From a virus, in the IMG/VR virus record IMGVR_UViG_3300017726_000063, positions 1-26,679 of that record: a stretch of DNA of 26,679 bases; one strand, written 5' to 3'. This document shows positions 2,107 to 20,466 of the stretch, piece after piece. How positions within the stretch are numbered: position 1 is the stretch's first letter; the number at the start of each line of letters is the position of its first letter. The translations under genes and the position numbers were made by a program. The notes beneath the pieces were generated by a model. The model worked only from the letters and a program-made list of their open reading frames with translations, did not search any database and was not told the DNA's origin.

Positions 2107-2214
2107 TAGACATGGTGAGAATCGAACTCACATTAACCATTATGTCTTACTCACGTGTATTTACCCTGCCCAGTTTTCCCGTTGCCTGAAGGTTCGGACA
2201 GTCACCTGTGTGAG
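2107..2214 (-). ncRNA. Structured RNA ending in a tRNA T-arm/acceptor minihelix
   Basis: Read on the minus strand, 2131-2115 is an exact tRNA T-arm: five-base stem GTGAG/CTCAC around the loop TTCGATT. Seven bases (CATGTCT, 2114-2108) and an A (2107) follow, just as the acceptor strand and discriminator base follow in a tRNA. The matching strand AGACAT (2147-2142) lies only ten bases 5' of the T-stem, so the D and anticodon arms are absent. Upstream, CTGTCC (2201-2196) pairs with GGGCAG (2171-2166), and CTCAC (2214-2210) with GTGAG (2154-2150), giving a folded 5' domain. No CCA is encoded. It could be a tRNA-derived RNA, a relic, or a tRNA-fragment attachment site. The flanks to 2238 hold no gene. 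Confidence 0.5.
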
Positions 2215-3808: not shown

Positions 3809-5374
3809 ATGGAATATCACAATCCCAGTGAACTTGTCAAAGAATTATCTTTTGGCGACGAAGCTAAAAACAAAGTAATACAAGGTGTAGATAAACTAGC
3901 AAGAGCAGTTAAGTCTACATTAGGAGCATCAGGTAAGTGTGTAATATTTGAAGATGCCCGTGGAAAACCGGTGATAACAAAAGACGGTGTAACCGTTGCG
4001 GAAAGCGTAGTCTTACTTGATCCGGTTGAAAACATAGGGGCAACACTTATTAAAGAAGCTGCTAGAAATACAGTGAAAGAAGCAGGAGACGGTACTACTA
4101 CAGCTACCGTCCTTGCTGAATCACTACTAAAAGAAGCAACAAAAGCTAAAGAGTCTATAAGAGATACTAAAGCCGGTATTGCCTCTTATGCTAAAAAAAT
4201 AAATAAATACCTAGACGATATAGCTATACCTGTAGAAGGTGAGATGTTAAAAGACGTAGCGGCTATATCTTGTAACAATGATTTAAAATTAGGTAGTATA
4301 ATATCTGAAGCCTACGAAAAAGTAGGTAAATCAGGTGTGGTACTGATGGAAGAGTCAGATACAGAAAAGACGTACGTTGAAATCGTAGATGGAGTACAGT
4401 TAGAATCTGGCTTAAAATCACCACACCTTATAACAGATAAAGATAAACAACGAACAGTGCTAGATAAACCACTGGTTTTAATAGTAGCATCGGAAATACC
4501 TAATATACGTAAGATACAACCTATATTAGAACATGTTATAAAAAACAAAAGATCATTACTTATAGTGGCTGAGGTTAGCACTCAGGTGTCATCTACGTTA
4601 TTAATGAACAAAGTTAAGGGTAATATCAAGGTAAATTACATTGATCCACCAGGTTTTGGTCCAACAAAGCAAAGTACACTTGAAGATTTAGCGTTTTTAA
4701 CAGGCGCTACAATAATGGATGAGAACTTAGGTGATGATTTAGACCTTATTAACCCTGATTGTTTAGGTGAAGTACAAAAATCAGTCACAGATGATAAAAC
4801 TACAGTTCTAACCACAATTGATTTAGGCTTAGATTTGCAAGAAAGGATTGAAAGTGTACAAAAAAGCATAAAAAAAGAAAAAAATCAGTTTATAAAACGT
4901 AGACTAGACCAGAGGTTAGCCATGTTAAGTGGTTCAGTTGGGCTAGTTAGGGTTGGCGCTGACTCAAAAGTGGAGTTGAAGGAGAAAAAAGACAGAATAG
5001 AAGATGCTATTTACGCTGTTAAGGCCGCCTTGAAAGAAGGAATAGTCCCGGGCGGTGGCGTTGCATTAGTCGATGCTGTCAGAAACAATAAGCCTGTCAC
5101 CGAAGGTGAAGAAATATTGTCAAAGGCTGTTTTAGCTCCATTTTTTACGATATTAGATAACGCTGGTCTTAAAAAAATACCAGTTTTAGAGTTAGAAGAT
5201 GGCGAGGGAATGGATGTAACTTGTGGTTGCATGAAAAATATGATAGATGCTGGCATTATTGACCCGGTTTTGGTTACAAAGTCAGCTTTAAAAAACGCTA
5301 TATCAGTAGTTTCTACTATAATTTCAGCAGATTGTGTAATTTCTAATATAAGAATTGAAAATGCAAGCAGTTAA
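3809..5374 (+). CDS. groEL: Phage-encoded GroEL-type chaperonin
   Basis: This is a group I chaperonin subunit of 521 residues (bacterial GroEL is about 545). Family landmarks occur in order: GVDKLARAVKSTLG (26-39), TKDGVTVAE with the ATPase Asp (57-65), GDGTTTAT nucleotide loop (93-100), the apical-domain SPHLITDKD and PPGFG, and KKDRIEDAIYAVKAALKEG followed by PGGGVAL near residue 411. The three catalytic-type Asp residues are therefore kept. Changes include TLGASGK for the usual TLGPKGR and loss of the Gly-Met tail; the end is IENASS. It would form ring oligomers that fold proteins with ATP and a GroES lid. The groES gene follows with a 14-base overlap. It may serve phage structural proteins (inference). 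Confidence 0.95.
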   Translation: MEYHNPSELVKELSFGDEAKNKVIQGVDKLARAVKSTLGASGKCVIFEDARGKPVITKDGVTVAESVVLLDPVENIGATLIKEAARNTVKEAGDGTTTATVLAESLLKEATKAKESIRDTKAGIASYAKKINKYLDDIAIPVEGEMLKDVAAISCNNDLKLGSIISEAYEKVGKSGVVLMEESDTEKTYVEIVDGVQLESGLKSPHLITDKDKQRTVLDKPLVLIVASEIPNIRKIQPILEHVIKNKRSLLIVAEVSTQVSSTLLMNKVKGNIKVNYIDPPGFGPTKQSTLEDLAFLTGATIMDENLGDDLDLINPDCLGEVQKSVTDDKTTVLTTIDLGLDLQERIESVQKSIKKEKNQFIKRRLDQRLAMLSGSVGLVRVGADSKVELKEKKDRIEDAIYAVKAALKEGIVPGGGVALVDAVRNNKPVTEGEEILSKAVLAPFFTILDNAGLKKIPVLELEDGEGMDVTCGCMKNMIDAGIIDPVLVTKSALKNAISVVSTIISADCVISNIRIENASS

Positions 5375-5618
5375 TTATTATATCGTAGTAGAAAATATAA
5401 AAGTAGAGCCGAAGAAAGTAGGTGGACTTATATTAACAGAAAAAACTGATACTGACAATAGATATATAAAAGCTAAAATACTTTCAATAGGTAATTTAGT
5501 AAAAGGAGTTGGCAAAGGTGATGTAGTTTACTATGACAAACATGCTGGTCATAGCATACAGGTAAAAGACGATTTGTATAAAGTAATACAAGTTGGTGAT
5601 GTAGTTTTAGTTGAATGA
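5361..5618 (+). CDS. groES: Phage-encoded GroES-type co-chaperonin
   Basis: This 85-residue protein (typical GroES is about 97) matches the cpn10 layout: an N-terminal strand YYIVVENIKVE, a short mobile-loop region ending in GGLILTE (compare GGIVLT in GroES), then KAKILSIGN, the VGKGDVVYYDKHAG turn and a C-terminal GDVVLVE strand. I start at the ATG at 5361; a TTG two codons earlier is also in frame but unneeded. It overlaps groEL by 14 bases and lies after it, the reverse of the usual host groES-groEL order. Its stop overlaps the next start as ATGA, implying coupled translation. It should cap the phage or host GroEL ring. Confidence 0.88.
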   Translation: MQAVNYYIVVENIKVEPKKVGGLILTEKTDTDNRYIKAKILSIGNLVKGVGKGDVVYYDKHAGHSIQVKDDLYKVIQVGDVVLVE

Positions 5619-14407: not shown

Positions 14408-17400
14408 ATGTCAATACCATTTTTAAATAACATAATAATAGATGACGCTGGGCACATACAATTTAAAACCTCAGCAGGCACTGACGCTGGTAAGATAGAT
14501 CAAGATGGTGATAACCTAGTTTTGAGTAATGCTATCGGTGATATTATTATTGGTAATGGTAGTGACGATGTTTATATTGGAGATGGAACAAATGCTGTAG
14601 ATATTAGGTTTGAGCAGAACATGGTTATATATGCTGATTCTAGCTCAACAAGAACTTTAACTTTAGGTGGTGCTAATACAAATTTAATATTAGAAAGCCC
14701 GACAATTAACGGTTCCTTAACCTTAGGCGCCACAACAATAAACAATAAGCTTACATTTACAGGCACTTCCGGTTATATACTATTTGATCGCGAACCAACG
14801 GGCGATACAGGTGCTTACGACGGCACCACATCAGTTCCTATGATAAAAGTAGATAGAGATGGTAGTGAATTAGTAGTTTTAGAAAGAGTATCAGATAACG
14901 GAGCTTTACTGCTTGGTAATGATGATTCTGTTATAATAGCGGCTGGAGACACTAGAGGTCAGATAAGAGATAATATTAATGAAAGCTCAGAAACTGTTAT
15001 TTTTTCCGCTGAGAGTGGTTTTCACGCATATGGTTTTCCTGGCAATGACACAACTTGGTCAAATAGAAATGAATTTAGATTTAGATCAGAGAGTACAACA
15101 GCTAGTGATAATGGATTATATATAGGTGATGGTGGTAATACACAATTTATAGATTTAAGTAGAAACTTAAAAAATATTGGAAATATAACTTTAACCGGTA
15201 CAGTTGATGGTGTTGATATAGCTGCAAGAGACGCTGTGTTGACAACTACAACTAATACAGCAAATGCTGCTGCTCCAAAGGCAAGTCCAACATTTACTGG
15301 AGATATAACTATACCAAATAAAATAATACACAGCGGTGATACCGACACATACATGCAGTTTGAAGCTGCCGATGTTTGGAGAGTTGTAACTGGAGGTACT
15401 GAAAGATTAGACATTAACACTAACAGAATATTAGTTGGTGATGGTATGATGATGCAGTACGATGGCATTAGCACAAGTAATAGCGGTACTGTTGTAAAAG
15501 GTGGTTTTTTAAATCCTGCATCAGAAGCTAATATGGTTCATATACCGCATATTGTAAATGATTTAGCTGGGTTTAATAAATGGAGCAACGCTACAATAAC
15601 TACAAGTGGTTTTTATGCATCAAGAAGTGGTAGTTCAGGTAGTTACACTTATAGCAATGAAGTAACAAATACGAACAGTGGTTGGGCAAACGCTTTTGAT
15701 GCACACTCAAGCACAGCGGGTAGTTGGTACTCAGATAATGGTTCTGATGGTATTTATCAACACGGCACAGATACACCAGGTGTAGTAGAATTAGAATGGA
15801 CTAATGAAGCACAATATTCACTATGGGCTGGTATTGTATTTGGTTCAGGTAGTTTTACACCAACATATGTAAAAATTGAAGCTTATAGAGCTAGCGCTTG
15901 GCAAACTCTTTGTGAGATAACTGATAATACAGACCAAGTTATATTAAGACAAGTTAATAGTAATAGTGGTACAAACGCTGCAACAAGAAGATTAAAATAT
16001 ACATTAGGTGGTTCTGTAAATAATAGTTATTTTAGAATCCACTCTTTATACATGGCTAACTATGCCGCTGGAAATAATAATCTAAACAACACAGGTACAG
16101 ATACCACAAGAGGTGTTAATTTCTTAGAAAGATATAAAGATGGTTATTTACATGGGCATCTTAGACCTGGTAAAGATGATACTTATGATTTAGGTTCTAG
16201 TAGTTATGAGTGGAAAGATGGTTATTTTGATGGAACTGTTTATTCAGACGCATTAAATATAAGTGGTAATATTACTGTATCTGGTACAGTTGATGGTGTT
16301 AATATAAGTGCTTTACCAACTTCCTTCGCTCCTACAAATGCTGATGCTACTCCTTCTTGGGTTCCATCAAGTGATCCAGGTTACTTAACATCGTCAATCG
16401 CATCTAATACATATCTTCCTCTTACAGGTGGCACTATGACAGGTGATTTAACTATTACTCATGCTAGTACACCTAGGCTTGTAATTACAGACACTACTAA
16501 TGATGTAGATTTTAAAATTAGAGCAGCTAACTCATATGTTTATATAGAAGCTGATACTGATAATGACGCTGCTTCTACTAGATTTAACTTTAAAGTAGAT
16601 GGTAATTTAGTTCATGAGATTTTACCAACTAGCCAAATATCTCATGGTAACTTTACTATAAGAAAAGATGATGCAACAGCTAAAGCGGTTCTTGATCTTT
16701 CAACAATAAAAGATCATACTGGTAGCGGTAACTTTGCTGCTGGTGATGATGTTGGTGTAATAAATTTTAAAGCAAAAGATAGTGTTGTTACAAGTGATTT
16801 AACAGTTGGTACTATTATAACAGAAGCAGATAATACATTTGCGGCTAACGATAAGAAAACAAGAATGAAAATGCAGGTATACACTGGATCTGCTTTAGAA
16901 AATGTTTTGTTTTTAGATTCTGACAAAAGTGCTACTTTTTATGGAAATATAATTACTAGTGGTACAGTTGATGGCGTAGATGTAGCAACTTTGAAATCTG
17001 ATTTTGATGGATTAGGTACTGCTGCTAATTTTGCCTCTAGTGCTTTTGCGACATCAGCACAAGGTACTAAGGCGGATAACGCTCTACCAAAAGCAGGAGG
17101 TACTATGACTGGTGATTTAACTTTAGACGATGGCTCAGGTGAATCACCACACATTGTTTTTCAAGATGATGATGATGTCAAATTTAGAGTCTACAATGCA
17201 GACAACAATGACTTTATTATCACAAGAGAAAACAATAGTGGGGCTGACTTTATAATACGCGCTAACTCAACAGCGTATACAAGCAGTTACTTAATGATTG
17301 GTGGTGCTACTGTTAGTCCAACAGCGATAGGCAACTGGAACACTGCTTACTCCCATTCTCAAGCAGCACATGCGCCATCTAATGCAGAACAAAACGTACA

Positions 17401-19906
17401 GTCTGATTGGAATGCTACTAGTGGTGATGCGCTTATATTAAACAAACCAAATATACCAGCGGCTATTACAGATTATGTATCTAAGGCAAATGGCGGCACG
17501 TTTAGTGGTGCTGTAACAATAGACGACAATTTAACAGTAACTGGCAATTTAATAATTACTGGTGACATAAACTCTTATAACGTTACAGATTTAGATGTTG
17601 CTGATAAAACCATAACAATTGGTAAAGGTCAAACAGAATCTAACTCAGGTGGCTCAGGTATCATTGTTGATGGCTCTGGTGCAAATTTACTTTGGAGCGA
17701 AACTAATTCTGCTTGGGAATTTAATAAAAAATTAGAAGTTAAAAGTAAACTTACTGTAGACACTATTGATAATGCAACATCAGATGTTGATAAGTTTTTA
17801 GTCTCTGATACCGGCGAAATAAAATATAGAACAGGCGCTCAAGTTTTATCTGATATAGGTGCTCAAGCCGCGGGAAGTTACCAAGCTTCTGGAAACTATA
17901 TAACTGGCACAGGAAGTTTATCAGCACAAGATCTTACAGATATAGGCAACTTATCTGGTACTAATACTGGTGATCAAGTATTACCAACAGCTAGTTCTCT
18001 TGGCGCTGTTACAAAAACAGGCACGCAAACTATATCAGGTGCTAAAACATTTACAAGCAATAGTCACAAACATAGTGGGCATTACTACATGACTGCATAT
18101 GATGCTGCCGGTAGTCACTACCCACACTTTTTAGACGGAAGTAATAATGGTGGAACAACTGTTAATTGGAGACAGTATTACGGTTCTACTTATAAAACAC
18201 ATACATGGTCGTCAGATAGCTCTGGTAACATGGCGTTTACTTTTCAAGGACAAATCAAAGCTAATGGTGAATTAGAAGGAACAAGTTTAGATATAAACGG
18301 TAATGCAGATGTATCTGGTACTTTAAACATTCATGATGAAATACTAACAACCGCTGCTGGTTCTTTACTTGAGATGTATAAAAGCAGCTGGAATAACGCA
18401 ACTAACCACGATGTACTATATTCTAGTTGGAATACATACGTTGGGGACTATTTATATTTAAAAGCACCCGGTAATAGTGTTAATGATCACGGTACAGCCC
18501 TTATTGGAGACGATGTTATTGCTTTTGGTAGGTCTGATGTTGAAACTGGAAGTCCAGAACTAACATCAGCAACAGCTCCACTTAGTGAAAACTGGTTTGT
18601 ATTAAATAGCTCAAGCGCAACTTTTTCAGGAGGCGTAACTGTTGAGGGTGGAACTTTAGACTTAGGTAAAGCAAATACAGCGTCTGGTCATATTAATGCT
18701 AAAGAGTTAATGACATTTAATATTGACACAGACAATGATGATACTAATAGATACTTTGCTTGGTATACAAATAGTTCGTCTGGCTCTGGTACAGAATTAT
18801 TAAAAATATTAGAAACAGGAGCCGCAACTTTTTCAGGTAATATTGTTATGGCTTCTGGTAAAACAGTTGATGGTGTAGATATATCCGCTTTACCAACTAC
18901 TTTTGCCCCAACAAATGCTGACGCAACACCATCGTGGGTGCCTAGTTCTGACCCTAGTTACACTCCAAACGCTTTACCACTAGCTGGTGGCACTATGACT
19001 GGTAATACTTTACACGGAGATGATGTAAGAAGTCATTATGGAGGAAGTAGTAATTTGAGCCTATATCACAAAAGTGGTGAATCATTTGTTGGTGGTGGTG
19101 GGCCTGATGACTTATTTCTTTCGCAAAGTAAAGGCTATATTTATATTGGAACAGCAGACAAGACAACATCTACTTTATATATTGATTCTCAAAACAAAAA
19201 AGTAGGATTTAGAACGCAAACCCCTGGCGCTGCGTTTGATGTTAATGGATCAATGCGTGTAAGAAACCAATTAAATGTTGGACACACTTCGGAGCAAAAT
19301 CTATATGTTCACGGTGATGGTACTGCAGGTGGTCGATACGTAAAAATGGGTGACTACGGTAAGGGTAGTTATTTCGCAATGTCCAGTACTGAAAATCAAC
19401 CTAAATATTGTACAGCTTTTGGAAGTGGAGGTAAGATAGTTGAAGACATGCGTATTGTAACTATTAAGTTATCAGGTGATGCGTTTAAATTATTAAGTAC
19501 TACAGGAACAACTTTAATACCAGCGCCAGGAGCTAATAGCTTTATAATACCTTACGAGTGTATAATACATAATAGCGGTGGTACATCTGGTAACTGGACT
19601 AGTACTGCACAAACAACAGCAGCTATAGGTTTTTGTGACACTACCAATTGTACTTATCCTGGTCAATTCAATAGACTATTTGTTATAAATAACACTTTAC
19701 TAAACACCAACGCCGCTTGGTATTACGCGGCCGGTATAGGAACAACTGGTAAAGTTATGGCACTCAACAAGCCTTTATTATTAAAAGCTTCTCAAAACCT
19801 TACAACAGTACCAACAGGAAATTGGTATATACAAATTAGATACCAAGTAATGAATAAGGACTCAGGACTTATACAAAACGTAGATATTACTAAAACCACT
19901 AATTAA
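14408..19906 (+). CDS. Giant modular tail fibre (1832 aa)
   Basis: This is the largest gene in the window. The N-terminus (FLNNIIIDDAGHIQFKTSAG) is a marine-phage fibre head. Residues about 393-560 (SGWANAFDAHSSTAGSWYSD to YFRIHSLYMANY) resemble a discoidin-like carbohydrate-binding module. DDTYDLGSSSYEWKDGYFDG (about 590) is a repeat known from cyanophage fibres. GTVDGV units recur near 627, 854 and 1485, and GGTMTGDL-type collar repeats near 671, 895 and 1524. NLSGTNTGDQ and TQTISGAKTF occur near 1175-1215. The last 150 residues (from MRIVTIKLSG) form a distinct tip domain. No S74 self-cleavage motif is seen. Probably a trimeric receptor-binding fibre. Confidence 0.85.
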   Translation: MSIPFLNNIIIDDAGHIQFKTSAGTDAGKIDQDGDNLVLSNAIGDIIIGNGSDDVYIGDGTNAVDIRFEQNMVIYADSSSTRTLTLGGANTNLILESPTINGSLTLGATTINNKLTFTGTSGYILFDREPTGDTGAYDGTTSVPMIKVDRDGSELVVLERVSDNGALLLGNDDSVIIAAGDTRGQIRDNINESSETVIFSAESGFHAYGFPGNDTTWSNRNEFRFRSESTTASDNGLYIGDGGNTQFIDLSRNLKNIGNITLTGTVDGVDIAARDAVLTTTTNTANAAAPKASPTFTGDITIPNKIIHSGDTDTYMQFEAADVWRVVTGGTERLDINTNRILVGDGMMMQYDGISTSNSGTVVKGGFLNPASEANMVHIPHIVNDLAGFNKWSNATITTSGFYASRSGSSGSYTYSNEVTNTNSGWANAFDAHSSTAGSWYSDNGSDGIYQHGTDTPGVVELEWTNEAQYSLWAGIVFGSGSFTPTYVKIEAYRASAWQTLCEITDNTDQVILRQVNSNSGTNAATRRLKYTLGGSVNNSYFRIHSLYMANYAAGNNNLNNTGTDTTRGVNFLERYKDGYLHGHLRPGKDDTYDLGSSSYEWKDGYFDGTVYSDALNISGNITVSGTVDGVNISALPTSFAPTNADATPSWVPSSDPGYLTSSIASNTYLPLTGGTMTGDLTITHASTPRLVITDTTNDVDFKIRAANSYVYIEADTDNDAASTRFNFKVDGNLVHEILPTSQISHGNFTIRKDDATAKAVLDLSTIKDHTGSGNFAAGDDVGVINFKAKDSVVTSDLTVGTIITEADNTFAANDKKTRMKMQVYTGSALENVLFLDSDKSATFYGNIITSGTVDGVDVATLKSDFDGLGTAANFASSAFATSAQGTKADNALPKAGGTMTGDLTLDDGSGESPHIVFQDDDDVKFRVYNADNNDFIITRENNSGADFIIRANSTAYTSSYLMIGGATVSPTAIGNWNTAYSHSQAAHAPSNAEQNVQSDWNATSGDALILNKPNIPAAITDYVSKANGGTFSGAVTIDDNLTVTGNLIITGDINSYNVTDLDVADKTITIGKGQTESNSGGSGIIVDGSGANLLWSETNSAWEFNKKLEVKSKLTVDTIDNATSDVDKFLVSDTGEIKYRTGAQVLSDIGAQAAGSYQASGNYITGTGSLSAQDLTDIGNLSGTNTGDQVLPTASSLGAVTKTGTQTISGAKTFTSNSHKHSGHYYMTAYDAAGSHYPHFLDGSNNGGTTVNWRQYYGSTYKTHTWSSDSSGNMAFTFQGQIKANGELEGTSLDINGNADVSGTLNIHDEILTTAAGSLLEMYKSSWNNATNHDVLYSSWNTYVGDYLYLKAPGNSVNDHGTALIGDDVIAFGRSDVETGSPELTSATAPLSENWFVLNSSSATFSGGVTVEGGTLDLGKANTASGHINAKELMTFNIDTDNDDTNRYFAWYTNSSSGSGTELLKILETGAATFSGNIVMASGKTVDGVDISALPTTFAPTNADATPSWVPSSDPSYTPNALPLAGGTMTGNTLHGDDVRSHYGGSSNLSLYHKSGESFVGGGGPDDLFLSQSKGYIYIGTADKTTSTLYIDSQNKKVGFRTQTPGAAFDVNGSMRVRNQLNVGHTSEQNLYVHGDGTAGGRYVKMGDYGKGSYFAMSSTENQPKYCTAFGSGGKIVEDMRIVTIKLSGDAFKLLSTTGTTLIPAPGANSFIIPYECIIHNSGGTSGNWTSTAQTTAAIGFCDTTNCTYPGQFNRLFVINNTLLNTNAAWYYAAGIGTTGKVMALNKPLLLKASQNLTTVPTGNWYIQIRYQVMNKDSGLIQNVDITKTTN
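16286..16390 (+). repeat. Fibre internal repeat, copy A
   Basis: This encodes TVDGVNISALPTSFAPTNAD and continues through ATPSWVPSSDPGYLT in the 1832-aa fibre. It is nearly the same protein string as copy B at 18862, with only a few residue changes. At DNA level the two copies differ at many third codon positions, so they are old or re-randomised copies kept by protein-level selection, not a recent duplication. Confidence 0.75.
18862..18962 (+). repeat. Fibre internal repeat, copy B
   Basis: This encodes TVDGVDISALPTTFAPTNAD and continues through ATPSWVPSSDPSYTP, about 858 residues after copy A. Each copy is followed, about 10-20 residues later, by a PL(T/A)GGTMTG collar string, so the repeat unit is a linker plus collar that probably joins fibre shaft modules. 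Confidence 0.75.
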
Positions 19907-20270: not shown

Positions 20271-20466
20271 TATCGGTAAAGATTATAAAAATGAAGCTAT
20301 GCACTACTCCGTAGGTCAAGAGGTCTACGGAGGGCATACTATTTGTCATATAACAGAAGAAGACGATAAGTTCAGTATATTTATTAAAAAAAATGACGAG
20401 GTTTTACCTTGGAAAGACTTTAATAAAAACATGGCTGTAGCTGTTGAGTATAACTTAGAGTATTAA
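20248..20466 (+). CDS. Small hypothetical protein (72 aa)
   Basis: The frame encodes 72 residues, MKLIRKISIGKDYKNEAMHY onwards. It is likely a small beta-barrel: GQEVYGGHTICHITEED, then FSIFIKKNDEVLPWKDF and AVAVEYNLEY. One cysteine. The start overlaps the previous gene by 23 bases; the alternative Met at residue 18 would remove the overlap but would drop a conserved-looking strand. Its TAA overlaps the next ATG (TAATG). Close linkage to the packaging genes suggests a virion or assembly role; family not recognised. Confidence 0.6.
   Translation: MKLIRKISIGKDYKNEAMHYSVGQEVYGGHTICHITEEDDKFSIFIKKNDEVLPWKDFNKNMAVAVEYNLEY

Follow-up and report, generated by a model that had tools for sequence, protein, structure and literature searches.

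Known tRNA-like elements

tRNA-like elements that serve in RNA processing are already known in kind, and those nearest to the element described here are the t-elements of plant mitochondria. They are homologous to tRNA genes, retain a tRNA-like secondary structure, lie at mRNA ends without an encoded CCA, and are cleaved there by RNase P and RNase Z without being charged (PMC11658184). The phage element likewise places a tRNA-like fold without an encoded CCA at mRNA or cistron borders; it differs in having only an acceptor and a T-arm, in recurring in gap after gap and in being phage-borne. In mitochondrial tRNA punctuation, tRNA folds between genes also set the ends of mRNAs, but there functional, real tRNAs do the job, unlike the phage minihelix. 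The tRNA-like domain of tmRNA shares with the minihelix an acceptor, a T-arm and a D-loop (in the phage case a likely stand-in) without a D-stem, and some variants in mycobacteriophage Cuke also carry a helix at the anticodon position; however, the minihelix has no tag reading frame and, as a rule, no CCA. The 3′ ends of some plant RNA viruses resemble the phage arrangement in that a pseudoknot is followed by a tRNA-like acceptor, but those structures end the genome and are charged, whereas the phage elements are internal, intergenic and without CCA. Finally, the SAS/ESAS elements of cluster K mycobacteriophages are repeated intergenic inverted repeats before start codons, of unknown function; they are 17-bp imperfect inverted repeats, and the term 'tRNA-like' appears nowhere in their description (PMC3203893). 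We found no description of a phage minihelix class in the open-licence PubMed Central literature searched and, within that scope, it appears to be new in phages, an unannotated structured RNA outside Rfam.

An acceptor/T-arm minihelix between two phage genes

The window analyzed here is the whole 26,679-nucleotide stretch of IMG/VR record IMGVR_UViG_3300017726_000063. On its minus strand, positions 2107 to 2147 form an acceptor/T-arm mimic of tRNA, confirmed mainly by sequence comparison. Read from 2147 to 2104, this strand is AGACAT-AATGGTTAAT-GTGAG-TTCGATT-CTCAC-C-ATGTCT-A-CTA. The parts of the element and its surroundings, all on the minus strand, are as follows.

2108 to 2147, minus: tRNA-like minihelix (sequence; model R1, 69 bits; covariation; Python scanner)
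2147 to 2142, minus: acceptor 5′ strand, AGACAT (sequence)
2141 to 2132, minus: 10-nt linker AATGGTTAAT, probably D-loop-like (sequence)
2131 to 2115, minus: T-arm, GTGAG-TTCGATT-CTCAC (sequence)
2114, minus: unpaired C (sequence)
2113 to 2108, minus: acceptor 3′ strand, ATGTCT (sequence)
2107, minus: discriminator A73 (sequence)
2106 to 2104, minus: CTA tail, C74-N75-A76 and not CCA (sequence; C-N-A pattern kept across the class)
2166 to 2207, minus: whole H-type pseudoknot, 5′ of the minihelix (both stems covary)
2207 to 2204 with 2193 to 2190, minus: pseudoknot stem S1, AGGT/ACCT (alignment A4)
2201 to 2196 with 2171 to 2166, minus: pseudoknot stem S2, CTGTCC/GGGCAG (alignment A4)
2150 to 2214, minus: possible outer pairing, CTCAC 2214 to 2210 with GTGAG 2154 to 2150 (window-like relatives only)
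2239 to 2466, minus: upstream gene, 75 aa, C-terminus KYKSYTSSTSVPVSVREVVEQ (ORF list)
1934 to 2083, minus: downstream gene, 49 aa, N-terminus MAKFHH (start codon 20 nt downstream of the CTA tail)
2502 to 2522, minus: promoter-like motif TACGAACCATTGTGGATAATA, before the 75-aa upstream gene (sequence scan)

The sequence-only reading had reported a perfect T-arm (GTGAG/TTCGATT/CTCAC), its partner AGACAT ten bases upstream of the T-stem with the D and anticodon arms missing, and seven acceptor bases followed by an A. The first two claims held, with every piece of the T-arm in place. The third held in part: the acceptor has six pairs, and position 7 is an A opposite a C, which leaves it short of a perfect 7 bp. 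The secondary structure of an acceptor plus T-arm is present; coaxial stacking of the two is inferred. The linker probably resembles a tRNA D-loop carrying G18-G19, a reading drawn from sequence alone; in tRNA, the GG of the D-loop docks into the T-loop.

In many relatives the element is preceded by genes with C-termini similar to that of the window's 75-aa gene. The 49-aa downstream product is likely a membrane protein, and its gene likely shares one transcription unit with the element. A promoter-like motif, TACGA-N8-GGATAATA, recurs at window positions 1270, 1801, 2502 and 2674 (minus strand), before several early genes. The gap that holds the minihelix contains no copy of this motif, copies standing before the neighboring genes instead, and this is consistent with an element internal to a transcription unit.

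Standard searches of the single sequence gave little. ARAGORN called neither a tRNA gene nor a tmRNA in the window, and none of the 4227 Rfam families scored above its gathering threshold for the window element; the best cmscan hint was to tmRNA, at 12.3 bits (gathering 47) and confined to the T-arm. Identity as a tmRNA was rejected on these grounds, and a cloverleaf with an anticodon arm is lacking, as merely 10 nt link acceptor and T-stem. Group I intron core, ribozyme and tmRNA were also considered for the upstream domain, and none had Rfam support down to an E value of 10. A blastn search of the element against INPHARED returned T-arm or chance matches only. The G3-U70 mark of alanine minihelices is absent in the window, where the third pair is A-U. 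Single-sequence folding of the window element was no better than that of shuffles (z ∼0.3); energy alone is therefore no proof of the fold, and comparison was needed.

Comparative evidence for the fold

An exact 25-mer of the window element is present in 13 IMG/VR contigs. A first IMG/VR pattern, in which only linker and T-loop letters were fixed, returned at least 119 stretches. Among the 71 distinct sequences whose T-stem had four pairs or more, 67 also had complementary acceptor strands, although the pattern placed no requirement on the acceptor; we estimate the chance expectation at about 6%. A second pattern scan, with AACGGTT, led to cultured mycobacteriophages; its counts too are lower bounds. 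Because these scans fixed the linker and T-loop, they account in part for the conservation of GG and TTCGA.

A first alignment mixed two register types and put the gap at the end; it was dropped, and the model was built on a single register. In an alignment of 27 sequences, selected for acceptors with at least five of six pairs, 98.7% of cells were paired, and both sides varied in each of the six acceptor pairs and in four T-stem pairs out of five. Covariation was 1.121, against 0.264 in shuffled alignments and at most 0.202 when the pairing was slid. A broader set, aligned or fitted to the model, gave 1.078 against 0.204 shuffled. Compensatory change in related phages, which the sequence-only reading had set as its test, was thus passed strongly, and its alternative of a relic failed: the structure is kept while the sequence turns over.

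When run over the fetched loci (2.38 Mb), a fold scanner found 258 instances, corresponding to 177 distinct minihelices; shuffled or reversed DNA gave no match. There are thus at least 177 distinct minihelices, in 170 of the 251 loci fetched through the IMG/VR scans; since the loci were fetched by pattern, this density is not a natural frequency. What had been described as a single element is a member of a large class spread over many unrelated phages, often with several copies per phage. The acceptor and T-stem together comprise 11 or 12 layers in 147 of the 177 elements, and in tRNA the same stack has 12.

The inverted repeats are present in the DNA and could in principle act there, as a hairpin or a protein-binding site. 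We consider this very unlikely, although the contradiction is weak: orientation strictly follows transcription, the stems contain G-U pairs (70 of 1934), and the loop letters are specific to tRNA.

A further alternative is that the element serves recombination, as an attachment site (raised in the sequence-only reading) or as another target derived from a tRNA. The 3′ ends of tRNA genes are common attB sites, which speaks for it. However, a search of 149 Flavobacteriaceae genomes for the window 25-mer, allowing up to two mismatches, came up empty in 148; the sole match is a contig of a metagenome-assembled genome (L122) that bears the whole element and is likely phage DNA. No tyrosine integrase was found among nine related records (serine integrases were outside that search), and copies within a phage differ in sequence. 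This alternative is all but excluded.

Flanking structures

The pairing CTGTCC/GGGCAG, previously proposed upstream of the minihelix, held and was extended to an H-type pseudoknot with AGGT/ACCT. Pairs exchange in both stems (AU/UA/GU in S1; AU/CG/GC and UA/AU/UG in S2), and in the window family 97.1% of cells are paired with a covariation of 0.371 against 0.095, from only seven sequences. A second upstream pairing of the same proposal, CTCAC/GTGAG, is confined to near-identical relatives, and comparison gives it no covariation support. In many flavophage members, an H-type pseudoknot ends 2 to 5 nt before the minihelix. A generic pseudoknot scan over all loci showed a modest enrichment (23 of 187, ∼9 expected); the signal is due to the flavophages, a subset with constant geometry. 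In two further loci (L125 and L126), the pseudoknot of the window group, the acceptor and the T-arm are kept and a longer insert replaces the linker, a retention that reveals which part is selected. A further conserved fold, ACCTCAGCTGAAGTGCTGATTAGGCTGAGGTGG, was seen ahead of the pseudoknot in L051 and L094.

In Shine-Dalgarno-type phages the order is stop codon, ∼9 nt, minihelix, A, CGA, stem-loop, ribosome-binding site and start codon. In the group with CG tails, the downstream hairpin has a mean z of −2.46, with 38 of 59 at p ≤0.05, and its first paired base most often lies 3 nt after base 73. No such downstream hairpin was found in the CT- and CA-tail groups.

Distribution and gene context

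Four cultured mycobacteriophages carry the element, with nine scanner matches each in Cuke and Indlulamithi and seven each in Fowlmouth and MrMiyagi within the fetched regions. All lie on the coding strand and at gene borders, mostly 8 to 10 nt after a stop codon and ∼35 to 50 nt before the next start; a few appear to fall inside an annotated ORF, where genes overlap or the start was probably drawn too early. Between orthologous gaps of Cuke and Fowlmouth, the T-stem changes from GTAGG/CCTAC to GGGAG/CTCCC, with an identical acceptor and the fold kept. Longer tRNA-like variants fill the remaining gaps. In some, such as Cuke gp057/058, a helix occupies the anticodon position; the member at Cuke gp049/050 folds differently, with an extra helix and an ACCA tail. 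Long helices at the anticodon position, resembling the tRNA-like domain of tmRNA, were noted in the Cuke locus (L248) at 14527 to 14725 and 17974 to 18096.

The uncultured phage L115 has 10 minihelices of differing sequence in successive gaps over ∼5.4 kb. It has no relative in INPHARED. Among relatives by terminase, a family common to 87 records, MW202828 (42 kb, L247) and elemoF (first 30 kb, L254) showed no minihelix. Within the phage group to which the window belongs, the window and L003, a near-identical relative, have one full-score element each. Where a locus has three or more copies (15 loci), all of them share one strand, and 28 of 189 elements lie inside a long ORF against 58% of random positions, the ORF caller behind these context statistics being crude.

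Generic acceptor/T-arm mimicry and several copies per phage would also suit a decoy acting in trans on a tRNA-binding host protein or a tRNA-targeting defense (EF-Tu, CCA enzyme, a synthetase or a toxin). Against this, one element per gap at a fixed spacing from genes points to action in cis, acceptor sequences vary freely (the G3-U70 pair occurs in only 5 of 177 class members), and CCA is avoided. A decoy role is very unlikely.

Avoidance of CCA

Of 176 elements, 162 have a cytidine at base 74 or adjacent to it, yet CC follows base 73 in just 3 of these 162 (binomial ∼2e-12 at p 0.2). The prevailing tails are CTA, CGA and CAA, and CCA is encoded in 2 of 176 elements; of the 301 distinct tRNA genes that ARAGORN reports in these loci, 90 have a terminal CCA. 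RNase Z is suppressed by trailers that begin with CC or CCA (PMC7479834), and avoidance of CCA therefore fits an RNase Z site. C74 is kept although cytidines there are disfavored by RNase Z. The 3′ end of tRNA pairs with the L15 loop of RNase P (PMC4919913), and retention of C74 could possibly reflect this pairing.

Proposed function as a processing signal

Sequence comparison shows that the fold exists and is maintained by compensatory change, that it lies between co-directional genes, that CCA is avoided, and that further structures flank it. RNase P recognizes the acceptor/T-stem stack and the elbow; the D-loop is dispensable and a T-loop-like fold is seemingly needed (PMC4919913). From the 11 to 12 layers and the preferences of RNase P and RNase Z, we propose cleavage on both sides. 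The element would then be an intergenic signal for RNase P (5′) and RNase Z (3′) that splits polycistronic phage RNA, a reading we favor by a modest margin, cleavage itself being inferred. The transcript would fold into the portion of a tRNA that the two enzymes measure, namely 11 to 12 stacked layers, a T-loop and a D-loop stand-in whose GG docks on it. RNase P would cut 5′ of the acceptor and RNase Z after base 73, the polycistronic RNA would fall apart, and each gene of a long transcript would obtain its own mRNA. The pseudoknot would shield the new 3′ end from exonucleases and the stem-loop the new 5′ end; with ends so protected, neighboring genes could differ in mRNA lifetime. The excised minihelix would itself likely be a by-product. 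The earlier proposal that acceptor mimicry recruits tRNA-processing enzymes is supported in that it fits these findings, although actual recruitment remains an inference, and the model rests on sequence comparison without transcript or cleavage data.

The main difficulty lies in one gap common to Cuke, Fowlmouth and MrMiyagi, where the upstream stop codon is inside the acceptor. A 5′ cut there would leave an mRNA without a stop codon, so that cutting would have to be regulated or partial, or is not the function. The same gap speaks for a rival in which the minihelix stays uncut and acts in cis as a stable structure, at the ends of mRNAs or between cistrons, its tRNA fold used only for stability, forming a barrier that isolates translation of neighboring genes or blocks exonucleases. 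The position 8 to 10 nt after stop codons and just ahead of initiation regions, and the other stable structures flanking the minihelix, also suit it. However, a plain hairpin would suffice for such a barrier, and the kept T-loop, GG linker, 11 to 12 layers and C-N-A tail are the marks that tRNA enzymes read. We regard the barrier as unlikely.

Returning to the processing model, a bolder form of it is that undescribed, widespread armless minihelices, in phages of Flavobacteriia, Mycobacterium and other hosts, punctuate phage operons together with protective pseudoknots or stem-loops, and that host tRNA-maturation enzymes serve as the phage's mRNA-cutting machinery. We find this joint claim marginally more credible than its denial, cleavage again being inferred. 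If true, bacterial viruses would be using tRNA mimicry systematically to process mRNA, a counterpart to t-elements and to mitochondrial punctuation, and these phages would control mRNA lifetime gene by gene without a nuclease of their own. Because M. smegmatis mc2 155 is a host of the carrier mycobacteriophages, the idea can be tested directly; the elements also offer ready-made minimal substrates for studies of RNase P and RNase Z.

Other observations

Across five loci (L132, L201, L207, L208 and L213), the minihelix block is identical or nearly so, and beyond GTTCCT the sequences diverge abruptly; this may mark a mobile or integrating element. Minihelices lie near tRNA genes or arrays in L018 (1572 to 1615), L038 (4255 to 4297) and L020 (4136 to 4179), and the tRNA-like sequence that follows the minihelix in L038 escapes ARAGORN. 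In the window, a small ORF at 5355 to 5618 is GroES-like by eye only, the region 3809 to 5374 encodes a phage GroEL (phrog_5725), and a 197-aa protein at 20466 to 21059 matches a GroES PHROG.
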